Below, piece after piece: positions 197-9,344 of a stretch of 64,000 nucleotides of DNA (its first letter is position 1; the number at the start of each line of letters is the position of its first letter). The notes under the pieces are model-generated. The model saw only the letters and a program-made list of their open reading frames with translations. It was not told where the DNA came from and ran no database searches. The translations under genes were made by a program, and so were the position numbers. This DNA comes from Bowdeniella nasicola (GTDB taxonomy: Bacteria > Actinomycetota > Actinomycetes > Actinomycetales > Actinomycetaceae): contig JAUNVA010000003.1 of the NCBI GenBank assembly GCA_030537895.1, positions 45,605-109,604 of the forward strand, in the 5' to 3' direction.

Positions 197-621
197 GCGC
201 GCACAAGTGCCGCGAGGCGGGCCGCCTCACGCTCGGCGCGGCGCCCGTCGGCAGCCTGGATCGCCATTACGGCGAGCGTCGTTCCATCTGAAAGATCAAG
301 TCGCACCCACGGCCAGCCGGGCGCATAGCGCACCGCGATAATCTCCGCCCACTGGACCTGACGGCGCCGAAAGAGATTGCGCACGTCAAGACCCTCCTCA
401 CTGGGGCGGGCGCAGATCAGCGCCTGCCGCACCACGACGATGAGTCCGGCGGCGAGAAAGAGGCCCACCGTAATCCGGTCCCAGGAGCCCCATGACGGGT
501 GGGCGCGCACCCGCCACAGCAGTACCGCATATCCAACGACGACTGCGGCGAGGAGTCCTGCCGCGACGATCGGCGCAAACAGAGGCCGAAAGACGCGATA
601 GGACCCGCGCGCTTTCGTCAC
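142..621 (-). CDS. PH-domain (bPH_6-like) small membrane protein
   Basis: A 159-residue protein with two N-terminal hydrophobic helices (about residues 13-35 and 49-66), followed by a small beta-rich domain. EGLDVRNLF and WVRLDLSDGTTLAV in that domain resemble the bacterial PH domain found beside ribH or hisG in actinobacteria. The GTG start at 619-621 overlaps the hisG stop as GTGA, so the two are probably translationally coupled. The function of the family is unknown. I infer a membrane-anchored protein with a cytoplasmic PH fold. Confidence 0.75.
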   Translation of the reverse strand: MTKARGSYRVFRPLFAPIVAAGLLAAVVVGYAVLLWRVRAHPSWGSWDRITVGLFLAAGLIVVVRQALICARPSEEGLDVRNLFRRRQVQWAEIIAVRYAPGWPWVRLDLSDGTTLAVMAIQAADGRRAEREAARLAALVRAHEPPDFPPLEEGSGPST

Positions 622-1463
622 AGACGGCAGGCCTCAATTGAGGTGACAAGGATTGCGCGGGCCCCCACCTCGTAGAGATCGTCAAGCACCCGGTTCGTTT
701 GCGCGCGCTGCACCATGGCTCGCACGGCAAGCCAGGAGCCGTCGTGCAGTGGAGAGACGGTCGGCGACTCGAGTCCGGGGGTGATGGCGACTGCGGCGTC
801 CACGTCTTCGCGCCGCACGTCATAGTCGATGAGGACGTATTCGCGGGCGAGGAGAACGCCGTTGATCCGCCGGTCCAGAACGTCCAACTGCGGGTTCGGT
901 TCGCGCTCTGCCGGGGTGATGAGGATCGCTTCAGAGGCCAGCAGGGCATCTCCGAAGACCTCGAGGCCCGCAGCGCGCAGTGTCGAACCCGTTTCCACGA
1001 CGTCGGCGACGGCGTCCGCGACCCCGAGGTCCACGGATGTTTCAACGGCGCCATCGAGGTGGACAACCTCGGCGTCGATCTCGTGGCGGGACAGGTAGTC
1101 CGCGAGCAGCACGTCATAGCTCGTCGCGACCCGCTTGCCGGCCAGGTCCGCCAGGCTGTGGCACGTGCCCTTCGGGGCAGCGAAGCGGAAGGTGGACCGT
1201 CCAAAGCCGAGGGCGCGGCTCTCCTGCGCAGCCGCACCAGAATCGAGCAGGAGGTCACGGCCGGTGATCCCGGCGTCGACGGTTCCGGACCCCACGTAGA
1301 TCGCGATATCGCGTGGGCGTAAGTAAAAGAACTCGACGCCGTTTTCGCCGTCGCGACACACGAGTTCCTTCGAATCGCGGCGTTGACGGTAACCCGCCTC
1401 CTTCACGAGGCGGGAGGCCGGTTCGGACAGGGAACCCTTATTGGGCAGAGCGATGCGCAGCAT
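618..1463 (-). CDS. hisG: ATP phosphoribosyltransferase, long form
   Basis: HisG joins ATP and PRPP to make phosphoribosyl-ATP, the first step of histidine synthesis. The 281-residue product begins [15 protein letters not shown] and carries the PRPP-binding stretch DVVETGSTLRAAGLE. It also has a C-terminal ACT-like domain, so it is the self-contained long form that does not need HisZ and is usually feedback-inhibited by histidine. A longer open frame runs upstream to 1556, but the ATG at 1461-1463 overlaps the hisE stop (TAATG) and matches the family N-terminus, so I chose it. The gene follows hisE and precedes the PH-domain gene. Confidence 0.95.
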   Translation of the reverse strand: MLRIALPNKGSLSEPASRLVKEAGYRQRRDSKELVCRDGENGVEFFYLRPRDIAIYVGSGTVDAGITGRDLLLDSGAAAQESRALGFGRSTFRFAAPKGTCHSLADLAGKRVATSYDVLLADYLSRHEIDAEVVHLDGAVETSVDLGVADAVADVVETGSTLRAAGLEVFGDALLASEAILITPAEREPNPQLDVLDRRINGVLLAREYVLIDYDVRREDVDAAVAITPGLESPTVSPLHDGSWLAVRAMVQRAQTNRVLDDLYEVGARAILVTSIEACRL

Positions 1464-1726
1464 TACAGGTACCGGTACACGTCTTTCAGATCGAGATCGA
1501 GAGCGATCATGAGGGTCTGGAGGTGGTAGAGCAGTTGGGAAATCTCTTCGGCACACGCCTCGGTGCCCTCGTGCTCAGCGGCCATCCACACCTCGGCGGC
1601 TTCCTCCACGATCTTCTTCCCGATCGGGTGGACACCACCGCGCACACGTTCGACGGTGTGGGAGCCGGCTTCGCCCGCGGCCACCTTGGCGGTCAGTTCC
1701 TCGAAGAGTGAGTCAAAAGTCTTCAC
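1463..1726 (-). CDS. hisE: Phosphoribosyl-ATP pyrophosphatase
   Basis: HisE hydrolyses phosphoribosyl-ATP to phosphoribosyl-AMP, the second histidine step. The 87-residue product has the MazG-like helical motif [13 protein letters not shown] followed by EEISQLLYH, and ends VYRYL; the same EEIS variant occurs in mycobacterial HisE. The GTG start at 1724-1726 lies only 9 bases after the stop of the solute-binding lipoprotein gene, with no room for a promoter. This suggests co-transcription with the FMN-riboswitch transporter genes. Confidence 0.93.
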
Positions 1727-1735
1727 GTCTTGATC

Positions 1736-2797
1736 CTAGTCCTGCGTCACGCTGTGCTCATCGAGGGCGTTCACAGCCCGGACGGGGTCCACCTCACTGT
1801 CCAACAGCGCATGCTCTGCCATGAAGTCAGCCATGGGTGCCCAGTCAGCTGGGTCGATCGCCATGGGCTCGCTGCCGTAGAGCTGGGCTGTGGCCGCAAG
1901 AACGTCCTCAGCCTGGGCGATCCGATTCGCACCCGAAACCTTCGGCAGGTAGGGCAGCGCTTCCTGTACGGCATCGTCCGGGTCCTCGATGATGTCTCGC
2001 ATCGCACGAGCGAGCGCGCGGCGCAGCTTCACGAGGGTCTCGCCCTCATGTTCCACGAACGTGTCACGCGCACCCAGGGCGATGGACTTGAGGGGATTGT
2101 CGCGCACGGGGAAGGTCCGCACCTTCAGGCCCGCCGTCTGCAGCGCCACGACGTCGTTGTTGGAAAACCCCATGACCGCATCGACCTTGGCCGACATCAT
2201 GGCCGTCTGGAGGGTGAATCCGATGTTCTCGATGGTGACGTCATCCTGACTGAGGCCAGCCGACTCGAGGAGGGCGAGCAGAGCGAACCAGTTCTCGCCG
2301 AACGGCCCCGGCACGCCGATGGTCGCTCCCTTGAGATCCGCGAGGTCCGTGATGCCGGATTCCTCGCGCGCAATCAGGACCACCGGGTAGTCCTGGTACA
2401 TCAGACCGAAGGCTGTGACGCCCAAACCCTGGGAGCGTGCTTGGAGCATCTCATCTGCACCCGCGTTCACGACGTGCTCATCGCCCGCGATCAGAGCGCC
2501 GAACAGTGACTCGCCGGCCCCGTGGTGACGCAGGTTCACGGACAGCCCTTCGTCGGCGAAGTACCCGCGAGCGTCCGCGAGGTAGAAGGGTGCGAACTGG
2601 ATGTCGGGGATGTAGGTGAGTCCGACGGTCAACTCAACCGGATCGGCGTTTGTGGTCGCGTTCGCGCTGGCGCTCTCGGTGGGCTTCGAGGCCGGAATCT
2701 CGGACGATCCGTCGCTCGGTTCCACGGTTGGAGAGGCGCACGCCACCAGGGTGACGCCGAGTATCAGGGATAGGTATCGCAGTGCACGTTTCACCAC
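1736..2797 (-). CDS. NMT1/THI5-like ABC solute-binding lipoprotein, probably riboflavin (RibY type)
   Basis: A 353-residue exported lipoprotein. It has a basic N-terminus, a hydrophobic segment and the lipobox LVAC (Cys about residue 20), then a Ser/Thr/Glu-rich linker and an NMT1/THI5-like periplasmic-binding fold (LTVGLTYIPDIQFAPFYLA near residues 55-75). Homology alone would suggest a thiamine-precursor binder. The FMN riboswitch upstream and the adjoining permease instead point to riboflavin or a related flavin, as proposed for RibXY systems. The GTG start overlaps the end of the permease gene (TGGTGA), so they are coupled. No ATPase gene lies nearby. Confidence 0.8.
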   Translation of the reverse strand: MVKRALRYLSLILGVTLVACASPTVEPSDGSSEIPASKPTESASANATTNADPVELTVGLTYIPDIQFAPFYLADARGYFADEGLSVNLRHHGAGESLFGALIAGDEHVVNAGADEMLQARSQGLGVTAFGLMYQDYPVVLIAREESGITDLADLKGATIGVPGPFGENWFALLALLESAGLSQDDVTIENIGFTLQTAMMSAKVDAVMGFSNNDVVALQTAGLKVRTFPVRDNPLKSIALGARDTFVEHEGETLVKLRRALARAMRDIIEDPDDAVQEALPYLPKVSGANRIAQAEDVLAATAQLYGSEPMAIDPADWAPMADFMAEHALLDSEVDPVRAVNALDEHSVTQD

Positions 2798-3576
2798 AGG
2801 CCTCGCATTCGATGTTCCAGATAAGAAATCGCGGCATAGAGCGCAGCCGCGGCGCTACATAGGACGATGAGGACAGCGAACAGGCCCTCCGTATCGGCGG
2901 CGTCTCGGTAGACCGTCAACAGGAGACCGAGGCCGCGCCCGCCCATGGTGAACTCGCCGACGACGGCGCCCGTCACCGAGAGGGTGAATCCGCCACGGAT
3001 CCCCGTAAGGATCGAGGGCGCCGCCAGGGGCGCTTGGATTCTGCGTACCAGGTCGAAGCCGGCCGCGCCATCGAGGCGCGCTGCATCAAGCACGTCCCGG
3101 TCGATGTCGCGGATTCCCAGCTGCGTGGTGAGCACGATGGGAAAGAACACCATGAGGGCACACAGGATCACGATGGGGGCACGCCCATACCCGACCCACA
3201 TCACGAGGATTGGGGCGAGGGCGATCGCGGGAATCGCCTGGGAGACTGCCACCCAGGGTGAAAGGGTGGTGCGCACGATGCGGAAGGAGGCAATCGCGTA
3301 CCCGAGCGGGACCCCGGCAACAGCACCGAGCGCGGAGCCGAGCAGCGCCGTGAGGAAGGTCTCCCCGACGTAGGGCAGCAGTTGACCGCTCGTGAGATCG
3401 GTGGCCGTGCGTGTGGCGACGGCGCCCGGGGGCGGCAACAGGTAGGGGTCAAGGACTGCCGAGCCGATACTCCACGCGATGAGAAGTGCGACGGCAAAGA
3501 CAATGGGGGCGAGAATATGGCGGGCACGCATCCGCGAGCGGTCGCGTCGCCGCGGTGGCGGCGTCGTGAAGACCAT
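2791..3576 (-). CDS. ABC transporter permease, probably riboflavin uptake (RibX type)
   Basis: A 261-residue inner-membrane permease of the BPD_transp_1 family with about six hydrophobic segments. The EAA-like cytoplasmic loop reads AARLDGAAGFDLVRRIQAP. The ATG at 3574-3576 follows a good ribosome site (GGGGAAGGG, 4 bases before), which favours it over the internal Met at about residue 16. It is the first gene after the FMN riboswitch and overlaps the lipoprotein gene. The partner ATPase must be encoded elsewhere or shared with another transporter. The flavin substrate is inferred from regulation. Confidence 0.8.
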   Translation of the reverse strand: MVFTTPPPRRRDRSRMRARHILAPIVFAVALLIAWSIGSAVLDPYLLPPPGAVATRTATDLTSGQLLPYVGETFLTALLGSALGAVAGVPLGYAIASFRIVRTTLSPWVAVSQAIPAIALAPILVMWVGYGRAPIVILCALMVFFPIVLTTQLGIRDIDRDVLDAARLDGAAGFDLVRRIQAPLAAPSILTGIRGGFTLSVTGAVVGEFTMGGRGLGLLLTVYRDAADTEGLFAVLIVLCSAAAALYAAISYLEHRMRGLW

Positions 3577-3608
3577 GCGTCCCTTCCCCGCCTTCGGGGC
3601 ACGCGCCG

Positions 3609-3634
3609 CCGCGCACCCGTGCCCGGGTGCGCGG
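3609..3634 (-). repeat. GC-rich hairpin between FMN aptamer and permease start
   Basis: A perfect 10-bp inverted repeat (CCGCGCACCC with GGGTGCGCGG, 6-base loop) sits in the expression platform of the FMN riboswitch. A second short hairpin (CCCCG/CGGGG) lies next to the ribosome site. There is no U-run, so control of translation, or of termination by another route, is more likely than a classical intrinsic terminator. Confidence 0.6.
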
Positions 3635-3638
3635 TGCT

Positions 3639-3756
3639 CGTACTTCTCCCATCCGGACTTTTACCGTCGGTATCGGACTTTCACCGATTCAACCGCGCGG
3701 GGCGCGGGTCGCGGACTGTCACCGCCGGTTCAGACTTTCACTGACCCCGAAGTACG
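3639..3756 (-). promoter_or_regulatory. FMN riboswitch (RFN element)
   Basis: Read on the minus strand, the segment shows the RFN blocks in order: GGGGTCAGTGAAAGTC, ACCGGCGGTGACAGTCCGCG, GGTGAAAGTCC, ACCGACGGTAAAAGTCCGGATGGGAGAAG. The ends close with an 8-bp P1 helix (CGTACTTC with GAAGTACG). FMN binding to this aptamer normally turns off riboflavin synthesis or uptake genes. It begins only 25 bases after the rpe stop, so the promoter must lie inside rpe or further upstream. Confidence 0.95.
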
Positions 3757-3781
3757 TTTGCCGCCAGCTTAGCAGGGCCTC

Positions 3782-4447
3782 CTAATGGGCGCAGGCATCC
3801 GTGGCAAGGCGGCGCAGCTCCGCGACCTCAGCGGCGGCATCCTCCGCGTTGAAGACCGCCGACCCTGCGACGAACACGTCCGCTCCGGCCTCCGCACACG
3901 CCTCGATCGTGGAGCGTGAGACGCCGCCGTCGACCTGGATCGCGAGATCGACGCCGGTGCGGATCGCCGCCCGGCGCGTGCGCTGCACCTTCGGGAGCAT
4001 TGAATCGAGGAAGCTCTGACCGCCAAAACCCGGTTCGACCGTCATGACGAGGATCATGTCGAACTCGTGCAACAGGTCGACGTAGGGCTCGATGCCGGTC
4101 GACGGCTTCAACGCGAGTCCCGCTTTGGCTCCCTGAGCGCGAATCTCACGAGCGAGGCGAATCGGCGCGCCGGCAGCCTCGGCGTGGAATGTGACGGACG
4201 CGCACCCCACCTCCGCGTAGGCGGGCGCCCAGCGATCCGCATCCTCAATCATGAGGTGCGCGTCAACCGGGAGCACCTTCGACTTCACGATCTGTTCCAC
4301 GACGGGCAAACCCCAGGTGAGGTTGGGGACGAAGTGGTTATCCATGACGTCAACGTGGGCGAAGTCGGCGTCGGCGATCTTCTCGAGTTCGCAGCGTAGA
4401 TCCAGGACGTCACAGTTGAGGATTGATGGGGAGATCGTGATAGTCAT
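3782..4447 (-). CDS. rpe: Ribulose-phosphate 3-epimerase
   Basis: Interconverts ribulose 5-phosphate and xylulose 5-phosphate in the pentose phosphate pathway. The 221-residue TIM barrel carries the family signatures [12 protein letters not shown] (metal-binding His/Asp), [17 protein letters not shown] and VDGGV. It lies 9 bases after rsmB in the fmt-rsmB-rpe string. The FMN riboswitch follows its stop almost at once. Confidence 0.96.
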
Positions 4448-4456
4448 ATCCCCACC

Positions 4457-5812
4457 TTAGCGGCGGAAGGCCACGCCAAACATGGCGTCGGTCCCGTGAA
4501 CGTGGGGCCACAGCTGCACGCTCGTGGTGTCCCCGACCTCTGGGATGACTCGACCGAGGACGTGCTCCGCGATGGCGGGTGTGTCAAGCACGGTGAGGCC
4601 GAGTGTCTTCGCGGCGAATCGGACCTGAGCGAGGGTTTCGCGCTGCAGGGGCGAGCATGTGACGTAGGTGAGGATCCCGCCGGGCCGTAATGCTCCGGCG
4701 GCCGCGGCCAGCAGGTCCCGTTGCAGCGCAGTCAGGTCGTCGAGATCGGAGCGCGAATGGCGCCACCGCGAATCCGGACGTCGGCGCAGGGCTCCCGTCC
4801 CGGTGCATGGTGCATCAACCAGGACCCGGTCGTAGGCGCCTGGTTCGTCCTCAGCGACACGCCGACCATCGGCACAGCGGATCTCGACGCTGTCGAAATC
4901 GCGCAAGGTCCGCGCCACGAGGTCAGCGCGGTGGCGGGATACCTCGTTCGCCACAAGATGAGCGCCCACCTTCTCGGCTCGGGCCGCGAGGACGCCGGCC
5001 TTACCGCCCGGCCCGGCGCACAGGTCGAGCCAGCGTTCGTCCCGGCCCTCAATCGGTGCTCCCGCCGCGATAAGCGCCATGATCTGGGACCCCTCGTCTT
5101 GGACCGCCAGGCGCCCGGATCTTACCTCGCGGATCCGCGCCGGGTTGCCGCGCAACAGACGCATGCCGATCGGCGAGAGTTCGGTCGGTTCGACTTCGAG
5201 GGGCAGCTCGTGCAGCAGGGCGCCGCGGTCACCGCGCCGGATGACGAGATCGATGAGCGGCGGCCGGTTGTTCGCGGCGAGCAAGTCGGGCAGTTCCTCG
5301 ATGCTACGGCCGTGCGCAGCTAGTGCCGCGGTGAGTTCTTTCACCAGCCACGCGGGGTGGGAGTGCCAGTGGCCGAGACCATCGCGGCCGCCAGAGACCT
5401 CGGCGCGCCATTCGGCGAGCGGACGGCGTGCCACTGAGCGCAGGACCCCATTCACGAACCCCGTAGCTCGCTCCCCCACGTATTCGCGGGCCGCGCTGAC
5501 GGCCTGCGAGACAACCGCGTGGGCGGGTGTCTCCAAGGTGAGGATCTCGTGGCATCCGGTCCGTAAGATTGCCCGGACCTCGGGGTCGAAGGAGCCGACC
5601 GAGCGTTCTCCGGTGACAATCCGGATGATCGCGTCGTACCGTCCGGCGAGTCGGGTGGTGCCGTACACGAGTTCCGTGGCGAACGCGGCATCCCTCGGTT
5701 CCAGCTGCGCAGCCCGCAGTTCCTTCGGTAGAGCGAGGTTGGCGTAGGCGCCGTCGAGGTCGATGGCGAGCAGCGTGTTGAGCGCGACCCGGCGCGCATC
5801 CGTGAGTCTCAT
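4457..5812 (-). CDS. rsmB: 16S rRNA m5C967 methyltransferase
   Basis: A 451-residue RsmB/Sun protein. The first 130 residues or so are a NusB-like RNA-binding domain. The rest is a SAM-dependent methyltransferase with LDLCAGPGGKAG for SAM binding, DAPCTGTG, and TCSPLQRE, which holds the catalytic cysteine. It methylates C967 of 16S rRNA. The ATG overlaps the fmt stop by 4 bases (ATGA), as expected for coupled genes. Confidence 0.95.
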   Translation of the reverse strand: MRLTDARRVALNTLLAIDLDGAYANLALPKELRAAQLEPRDAAFATELVYGTTRLAGRYDAIIRIVTGERSVGSFDPEVRAILRTGCHEILTLETPAHAVVSQAVSAAREYVGERATGFVNGVLRSVARRPLAEWRAEVSGGRDGLGHWHSHPAWLVKELTAALAAHGRSIEELPDLLAANNRPPLIDLVIRRGDRGALLHELPLEVEPTELSPIGMRLLRGNPARIREVRSGRLAVQDEGSQIMALIAAGAPIEGRDERWLDLCAGPGGKAGVLAARAEKVGAHLVANEVSRHRADLVARTLRDFDSVEIRCADGRRVAEDEPGAYDRVLVDAPCTGTGALRRRPDSRWRHSRSDLDDLTALQRDLLAAAAGALRPGGILTYVTCSPLQRETLAQVRFAAKTLGLTVLDTPAIAEHVLGRVIPEVGDTTSVQLWPHVHGTDAMFGVAFRR

Positions 5813-7376: not shown

Positions 7377-9344
7377 CTAGAGGTCTTCGGGGTCCATTGT
7401 GGCACTGATCGGCGTCTCGCCTCGTGCGCTGCGGCGACGCAGCACGGTCGCTACCTCGCGGCGCAGCGCCGCGGCGCCCGCGGGCGGGACGCGAACGAGG
7501 AGCCGATCGGTGTGTTCGTCGAGGGCGACGGGGCCGAGCACTTCGGTTCCGGGCGTCACCTCCGCGAGATCGCGGGCCACCTGGGTAAGAGCCGAACGCG
7601 GCGCGGTGAATTCGGCGACGGTCGCGACGGGGGGCAGGTGTAGCTGTGCGCGCTCGGCGAGCAGGCGCTCCGCGTAACCCGCGCCGTCCGCCCGGATCAA
7701 CGCTTGGGCAAGCGGCTCGTCGAGATGGCCGGTGAGCACCATGCGCCCACCGTCTCCTCCCGGAGCGACAAGGGCGGCCGCCCACGAGAGTTGGCTCATT
7801 ACCTGACTGGGGGCGGACAGTTCGGTCCGTGCCGTGAGGGCCGCCCCGTCGAGCAGGACGGCGCAGCGGTAGCCACCGTCCGCGAGGGGAACGGCACCGA
7901 GGGTCGCGACAACAATCGCGGGTTTTGCGGATATCTTCTCGACAATCCCCGTGCGAGCGCCCGACAGCCGAATGAGGACCCCTGGGAAAGCCCGTCCGAG
8001 TTCCTCTGCGGTCCGTTCGGACCCGATGGTGCCCGCCCGCCACGCCGCTGACTCACACAGGGGGCAACTCCAGCGGGTAATGAGGTGGTCGGCCCACGCG
8101 CACCGGAGTCGGGCAGGAGCACTGGCCTGAACGGGTCCACCGCATTCGGGGCAGCGCGCGAGGGCCCGGCAGCGTTCGCAGCGTACCGCCTGGATGTAGC
8201 CACCACGCGGGACGATAACGAGAACGGGCCCCGTCTCCAAGCCTTCACGCAGTAGCCGGAATGCCTGGGAGGGCAGGCGCTGGGGCGGACCGGAGCGCGG
8301 ATCGCCCACGAGCACGCGCGGCCCGAGAGCACGCTGTGCCGCTCGGGTGGGCGCGTAGGATTCCGCCTCGCCACGGTGCACTAGGAGGTGTGCCTGGGGG
8401 GAGCGTGCCATCGAGACGAGCGCCGTGGCGCCGGCGCGCGCGACAGCGATCCGCCACACGTGTGGGCGGGGCGCGTGTCGCTCACGCAGGAGAGGATCCG
8501 CTTCGTCGACGACGATGGTGAGGCCGAGGTTGGGCAGCGGAGCCCACACCGCCGACCGGGTGCCAACCACGACGTCGACCTGGCCGAGGAGGGCGAGAAG
8601 GAAGGCGCGGTAGCGCTTGGCCGGGGTCTGGCTTGACTGGTAGTCGATCGCCCGTATCCCCGCCTCGGTGAGCGCGGCGACCATGGTCGCGACGTGGCGT
8701 GCGGCGGGCACGACGACGAGCGCGCGCCGAGCCGAGGCGAGGGCGGAGATCACCAATTCGAGAACCTGGTAAAACCAGCGGGGTCGGTCCCCGAGCACGC
8801 CGGGCAGCAGGTCGATGACGGCGGTCGGGTTTGCGCCGGCAGCGATCCGCTCGAGGAGACGGACCCCGCCCTCGTAGGCGCGGAAGAGCTCGCTACCTGG
8901 TGGCCGTGGTGGGGCCACGGTGAGTGGAGCGCCCACGTGGGCGCACACCGCCTGCTCGGTGCGGGCGTGGCGAGGTGGGATCGCGAGGCGCGCGACGTCG
9001 GGGAAGGTGCCCGCGTAGTGGGTGGCGATGTCCTCGATCACCTGCGTCACCTCGGCGGTGAGGACCGGCAGGTCGGAGACAAGTGAGCGCAGGTCGCGCA
9101 GCTGGCCCGCGTGCGCGGTGCCATCGGAGATCCCCACAATAAAGCCAGAGCGGTCCCGAGAGCCGAATCGGGCGGTGATGCGTTGTCCGACCTCGGCTCG
9201 CACCGCGAGTGGCTCGGGCAGCGCGTAATCGAAGACCTGATCGAGGTGTGCCGCGGGCAGATCAAGCCGGACCTGGGCCACGGGGCCCTGGTGGGTCGCG
9301 GGTTTCGGCAGCGCGAGACCCGGCAGTTCCGGCTGACTGGTCAT
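7377..9344 (-). CDS. priA: Probable replication-restart protein PriA, helicase motifs degenerate
   Basis: A 655-residue PriA homologue of the actinobacterial kind. The N-terminal 3'-DNA-binding domain (VRLDLPAAHLDQVFDYALPE) is present. The zinc-binding cysteine cluster at about residues 389-430 (CERC, CPEC, C, CPLC) is intact. The Walker A position reads LPGVLGDRPRW near residue 180 instead of G-x-x-G-x-G-K-T, and motif II reads VVDEADPLL. It therefore probably keeps DNA and primosome binding but not ATP-driven unwinding, as is common in actinobacteria. Confidence 0.9.
   Translation of the reverse strand: MTSQPELPGLALPKPATHQGPVAQVRLDLPAAHLDQVFDYALPEPLAVRAEVGQRITARFGSRDRSGFIVGISDGTAHAGQLRDLRSLVSDLPVLTAEVTQVIEDIATHYAGTFPDVARLAIPPRHARTEQAVCAHVGAPLTVAPPRPPGSELFRAYEGGVRLLERIAAGANPTAVIDLLPGVLGDRPRWFYQVLELVISALASARRALVVVPAARHVATMVAALTEAGIRAIDYQSSQTPAKRYRAFLLALLGQVDVVVGTRSAVWAPLPNLGLTIVVDEADPLLRERHAPRPHVWRIAVARAGATALVSMARSPQAHLLVHRGEAESYAPTRAAQRALGPRVLVGDPRSGPPQRLPSQAFRLLREGLETGPVLVIVPRGGYIQAVRCERCRALARCPECGGPVQASAPARLRCAWADHLITRWSCPLCESAAWRAGTIGSERTAEELGRAFPGVLIRLSGARTGIVEKISAKPAIVVATLGAVPLADGGYRCAVLLDGAALTARTELSAPSQVMSQLSWAAALVAPGGDGGRMVLTGHLDEPLAQALIRADGAGYAERLLAERAQLHLPPVATVAEFTAPRSALTQVARDLAEVTPGTEVLGPVALDEHTDRLLVRVPPAGAAALRREVATVLRRRSARGETPISATMDPEDL

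Follow-up and report, generated by a model that had tools for sequence, protein, structure and literature searches.

A probable RibXY riboflavin importer under FMN riboswitch control between rpe and hisE in an Actinomycetaceae genome

What does an ABC permease and lipoprotein pair import when its homology labels point to sulfonates or thiamine precursors and the element in front of it is an FMN riboswitch? This question is raised by a locus of the window (the whole stretch of 64,000 nucleotides analysed here), in which the minus strand carries, in order, fmt, rsmB, rpe, the FMN riboswitch, the permease gene, the lipoprotein gene, hisE, and hisG. The original prediction proposed a riboflavin importer at 2791-3756, an interval that holds the riboswitch and permease region and omits the lipoprotein, at 1736-2797. 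We conclude that the locus very probably encodes a riboflavin importer of the RibXY type that is controlled by FMN. Its components and neighbours are the following.

4457..5812, minus strand: rsmB, upstream neighbour (PF01189/PF01029; synteny)
3782..4447, minus strand: rpe, upstream neighbour (PF00834, E 2.8e-69; synteny)
3637..3758, minus strand: FMN riboswitch aptamer, or RFN element (RF00050, 99.9 bits)
2791..3576, minus strand: ribX, ABC permease of 261 aa, BPD_transp_1, SsuC/TauC-like (PF00528, E 1.9e-29)
1736..2797, minus strand: ribY, lipoprotein substrate-binding protein of 353 aa, NMT1/THI5 fold (PF09084, E 1.2e-40)
1463..1726, minus strand: hisE, downstream neighbour (PF01503; synteny)
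618..1466, minus strand: hisG, downstream neighbour (PF01634/PF08029; synteny; start chosen near the hisE stop)

The Rfam model RF00050 matches the aptamer over its full length (model positions 1-138; 3758-3637 on the minus strand; E 5.8e-22). The score of 99.9 bits is far over the gathering score of 66.2 bits, which bears out the RFN blocks and 8-bp P1 of the original prediction with the covariance model that it had proposed as a check. The 8 bp of P1 pair perfectly (CGUACUUC/GAAGUACG), the aptamer starts 24 nt past the rpe stop codon, and the 2.12-Mb genome has no second FMN riboswitch. Many true aptamer sites escaped a simple regular expression, which was not used as a search tool.

The permease and binding-protein pair behind the riboswitch has the architecture of RibXY, with an SsuC-like RibX and an NMT1-like RibY as expected of this importer (assigned by the Pfam models PF00528 and PF09084 rather than by COG0600/COG0715). 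The GTG start of ribY (PF09084 NMT1, 140 bits) overlaps the ribX stop, and its product has the lipobox LVAC, as judged by eye; its closest named relatives, from Bowdeniella nasicola strains, are 64 and 59% identical. The generic labels turned out to be those guessed at the outset, i.e., sulfonate, taurine, or nitrate transport. A sulfonate/nitrate-type ABC system standing behind a chance riboswitch would account for the matches to the SsuA, TauA, and SsuC/TauC models, which are weak and all well below their cut-offs; we find this scarcely credible, given that the riboswitch linkage is conserved over two phyla and that the pair and ribH have complementary distributions. The AlphaFold model of RibY (pLDDT 88) has ThiY (3ix1) as its best fold match, so the fold alone leaves the ligand unsettled. 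Automatic labels of sulfonate or thiamine-precursor transport would hide a route of vitamin B2 uptake.

The linkage to riboswitches in other genomes bears directly on the ligand. RibY orthologues are present in 45 of 79 related genomes (our own counted), and each of the 45 is preceded on its own strand by an FMN riboswitch at a distance of 829-1395 nt. When 20 of these loci were scanned with the full Rfam set, the result was 20 FMN riboswitches and no other element, so that the TPP linkage that would have spoken against the original prediction was seen at none of them. At 9 of 12 named loci that are more distant, an FMN riboswitch lies immediately upstream of ribXY, with cases in Propionibacterium, Actinotalea, Pseudoclavibacter, Gulosibacter, Micropruina, and Ktedonobacterales. 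The riboswitch is 4.7 kb off and on the opposite strand at one locus (L229), and is absent from the two Streptomyces loci scanned (L213 and L219), so that FMN control is not universal in this protein family. Homologues of RibXY occur in Streptomyces at L213, L219, L221, and L233, and a gene for a luciferase-like monooxygenase lies near the one at L219. In Chloroflexota, RibY was found in 80 of 201 genomes; the best 20 loci include 19 with an FMN riboswitch and none with a TPP riboswitch, and one locus (G147) has no FMN riboswitch within the 9.7 kb read.

These data weigh against a ThiXYZ-like importer of thiamine or its precursors (HMP/FAMP) placed behind an FMN riboswitch by happenstance. Such an importer would agree with the membership of RibY in the NMT1/THI5 family, with the ligands of its best solved relatives (the FAMP-binding ThiY 3ix1 and the thiamine-bound 4nmy), and with the TPP riboswitches found on some RibXY homologues of Proteobacteria (PMC4418817). 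We nevertheless hold it to be improbable: besides the FMN linkage of all 45 relatives, the genome has a thiamine system of its own, a separate ThiB-ThiP-ThiQ-like (thiBPQ) operon preceded by the sole TPP riboswitch of the genome, and at ribXY there is the FMN riboswitch only, with neither a TPP riboswitch nor thiamine genes. The presence of RibXY also tracks the absence of ribH. ThiXYZ and RibXY differ further in organisation, in that ThiXYZ has a thiamine role and an ATPase gene in its own operon, which ribXY lacks, although ThiY (3ix1), THI5, and RibY have fold and Pfam family in common. Finally, the N-terminal motif W-x-P-N-x-x-H of ThiY and 4nmy (W-[YT]-P-N-x-x-H in these two proteins) is replaced in RibY by Y-x-P-[DN]-[IV]-Q-F-A-P, as it is in the RibY of Chloroflexus aurantiacus.

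The C. aurantiacus system is the natural reference for function. Its RibXY restores growth of an Escherichia coli riboflavin auxotroph, and both flavin binding by RibY and a riboflavin-dependent rescue were reported (PMC4418817). We identified the locus (Caur_0816-0817) from its expected place and from exact matches to the primers given in that paper. As in the window, an FMN riboswitch is followed by a permease gene and then by a gene for an NMT1-type binding protein, and no ATPase gene is adjacent in the stretch examined; unlike in the window, rpe, hisE, and hisG were not found within the 8 kb read. The RibX proteins are 39% identical over 212 aa and the RibY proteins 32% over 293 of 353 aa (E 2e-46), the latter value being below the first threshold of PMC4418817 (38% identity over 80%, adjusted for some families). 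A RibY profile search of the C. aurantiacus genome gave RibY as the single strong match (E 6e-68). The two RibY proteins share Y-I-P-[DN]-I-Q-F-A-P (in general form, Y-x-P-[DN]-I-Q-F-A-P), and we infer that this segment sits at the ligand. This match, taken with the FMN linkage, the separate TPP-controlled thiBPQ, and the absence of ribH, upholds the reading as a riboflavin rather than a thiamine importer.

The importer type itself, with its FMN riboswitch, is already known, and the locus is another instance of it. RibXY received its name in 2013, for Chloroflexi (PMC3766115), FMN-riboswitch ribXY pairs like that of the window are tabulated for the same phylum, Actinobacteria, with and without the biosynthesis pathway (Table 2 of PMC4418817, 2015), and RibXY has been used in gut-microbiome reconstructions (PMC6593275). 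The idea that RibXY is rarely recognised in actinobacteria must accordingly be toned down. The main text of PMC4418817 makes no mention of Actinomyces, Mobiluncus, or Arcanobacterium in a word search, and we found no description there of the rpe-hisE slot; our literature search on rpe, hisE, and riboflavin control gave nothing relevant by title. RibM (PnuX) also provides FMN-regulated riboflavin transport in Actinobacteria, but is a single membrane protein unrelated to ABC transporters. We add here the comparison of the rpe-hisE slot, the anti-sequestor in the leader, and the lack of a nearby ATPase gene; the exchange at the slot and the ATPase partner are the parts that we did not find described in the literature searched.

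The gene content of the genomes suggests why riboflavin would be taken up. In a genome-wide search of biosynthesis genes that covered ribH alone, lumazine synthase (ribH) was not found in our genome (a 94% complete assembly) or in the three congeners, and the organism is therefore probably a riboflavin auxotroph. The 49 genomes of the family Actinomycetaceae comprise 35 with RibY and no ribH, 7 with both, 6 with ribH only, and 1 with neither. That single genome, G038, is an assembly of 79% completeness with a contig break inside the unit of FMN riboswitch and ribX, so that all 36 ribH-less genomes of the family have an FMN-ribX(Y) unit. The probability that all 6 genomes lacking RibXY belong by chance to the 13 ribH-containing ones is C(13,6)/C(49,6), about 1e-4, a figure that assumes independence and is no more than indicative given the relatedness of the genomes. 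The generic labels would also hide the likely riboflavin auxotrophy of most of this family. Another flavin compound could be the substrate (FMN, lumichrome, a roseoflavin-like analogue, or a flavin breakdown product): any flavin source is compatible with FMN control, and related folds bind large aromatic cofactors, e.g., PqqT with PQQ. We think this unlikely, if marginally less so than thiamine, because a genome with a flavokinase gene and no ribH needs riboflavin itself, and because it is on riboflavin that C. aurantiacus RibXY supports growth (PMC4418817). With riboflavin as the substrate, the RibY lipoprotein would capture the vitamin outside the cell, RibX would by homology form the membrane channel, an ATPase encoded elsewhere would power the transport, and the flavokinase of the genome would convert the riboflavin to FMN.

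The genes rpe and hisE are conserved bounds of the slot occupied by ribXY. Most family genomes with sufficient sequence have the order rpe, FMN riboswitch, ribX, ribY, hisE, hisG; the order is interrupted in some cases, and in some one flank is lost. In sister families, six genomes (G051, G052, G062, G064, G069, and G070) have other contents in the rpe-hisE interval: here an FMN riboswitch precedes ribD, ribE, ribBA, and ribH, and in some cases a PnuC-family (RibM-like) gene lies inside the biosynthesis operon; in a seventh (G061), rpe, the riboswitch, and ribD are followed by the end of the contig. Most simply read, the biosynthesis genes at this riboswitch position were replaced by uptake genes, and we infer that the exchange went in this direction, from biosynthesis to uptake. 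On this reading, the slot is a clear example of uptake replacing biosynthesis at a single position controlled by a riboswitch. Family genomes with ribH have the biosynthesis operon outside the slot, which could reflect relocation or re-acquisition. Riboflavin-making members (L108, L116, L132, L153, L154, L160, and others) carry it at other sites, mostly with an FMN riboswitch of its own, and in Georgenia (L209 and L252) its start lies about 2.2 kb beyond hisG.

How the riboswitch could act on ribX is suggested by three short segments of the leader.

3745..3752, minus strand: CUUCGGGG, the 3' half of the P1 5' strand and the adjoining core; complement of the anti-sequestor
3592..3599, minus strand: CCCCGAAG, candidate anti-sequestor (sequence, complementarity, hairpin in the predicted fold)
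3580..3589, minus strand: GGGGAAGGGA, Shine-Dalgarno stretch of the permease gene, 3 nt before the ATG

In our genome, CCCCGAAG abuts the Shine-Dalgarno stretch and is the exact 8-nt complement of CUUCGGGG in P1 and core; the corresponding complement is 8-9 nt long in the three congeners. It has two alternative partners, CUUCGGGG, which leaves the Shine-Dalgarno free, and the GGGG of the Shine-Dalgarno, which hides it. Across the 45 leaders, the longest complement to the leader's own P1 strand averages 6.56 nt versus 5.99 (sd 0.14) under random re-pairing (p 5e-5; p 0.007 without our own genus), in a permutation test that retains the relatedness among the leaders; taken one by one, many leaders are not significant alone. 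In several of them (G006, G007, G040, and G045), CUCCGGGG of the aptamer is matched by CCCCGGAG of the leader. A P1-complementary anti-sequestor beside the Shine-Dalgarno indicates that the ribX leader would be under translational control. Judging from the complementarity across relatives, FMN, when plentiful, would bind the aptamer and let P1 form, and the freed CCCCGAAG would pair with the Shine-Dalgarno stretch and shut ribX translation; when FMN is scarce, the P1 5' strand would pair with CCCCGAAG and expose the Shine-Dalgarno. The hisE start lies at most 10 nt from the ribY stop, and control at the level of translation would presumably spare the his genes. Transcription termination was considered as well and set aside: no intrinsic terminator was found on the ribX leader, and a run of five T occurs in just 5 of the 45 leaders.

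The importer must also be powered. No ABC ATPase gene was found near ribXY in the window operon, nor did the ribXY operons of the relatives examined contain an ABC ATPase open reading frame. The ATPase must therefore come from elsewhere, which leaves the energy supply of RibXY as a gap open to experiment. In two relatives, G016 (L119) and G025 (L148), ATPases of separate systems occur near ribXY, each within a second ABC system that comprises one binding protein, two permeases, and an ATPase with the signature LSGGMQQR. The SsuB-type ATPases of our own genome are each encoded beside a permease and a binding protein of their own. One of them, on contig C37, was rejected as a general dedicated partner, with a copy more than 50% identical in just 2 of 58 relatives; at the end of this contig (L189), the genes for this ATPase, whose close copies occur in few relatives, a binding protein, and a permease adjoin a methyltransferase-domain gene. 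Another region of the genome (L191, contig C24:1-8000) encodes an SsuABC-like permease, ATPase, and binding protein, followed by genes for a cytochrome P450, a pyridine-nucleotide-disulphide reductase-type flavoprotein, and an RPE65-family (carotenoid-oxygenase-type) protein. An orphan UgpC/MsiK-type ATPase on contig C15 is the leading candidate, with perhaps one chance in three of being the partner. It has no transporter genes beside it, adjoins what by sequence are apparent trehalose-synthesis genes, and is present in 58 of 59 genomes, with 66-89% conservation in the best matches of 56 of the 58 relatives; it also occurs in genomes without RibXY, so this conservation is no proof of a link. 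The full scenario, in which the FMN riboswitch was kept in the rpe-hisE slot, the importer replaced the biosynthesis operon, most of the family became riboflavin-dependent, and the importer runs on a shared orphan UgpC/MsiK-type sugar-uptake ATPase, is tentative, and we would sooner expect some part of it to fail than all of it to hold.

Elsewhere in the window (7377-9344, minus strand), a PriA-like protein has a Pfam match only to the N-terminal 3'BD domain, as if its helicase part were degenerate.
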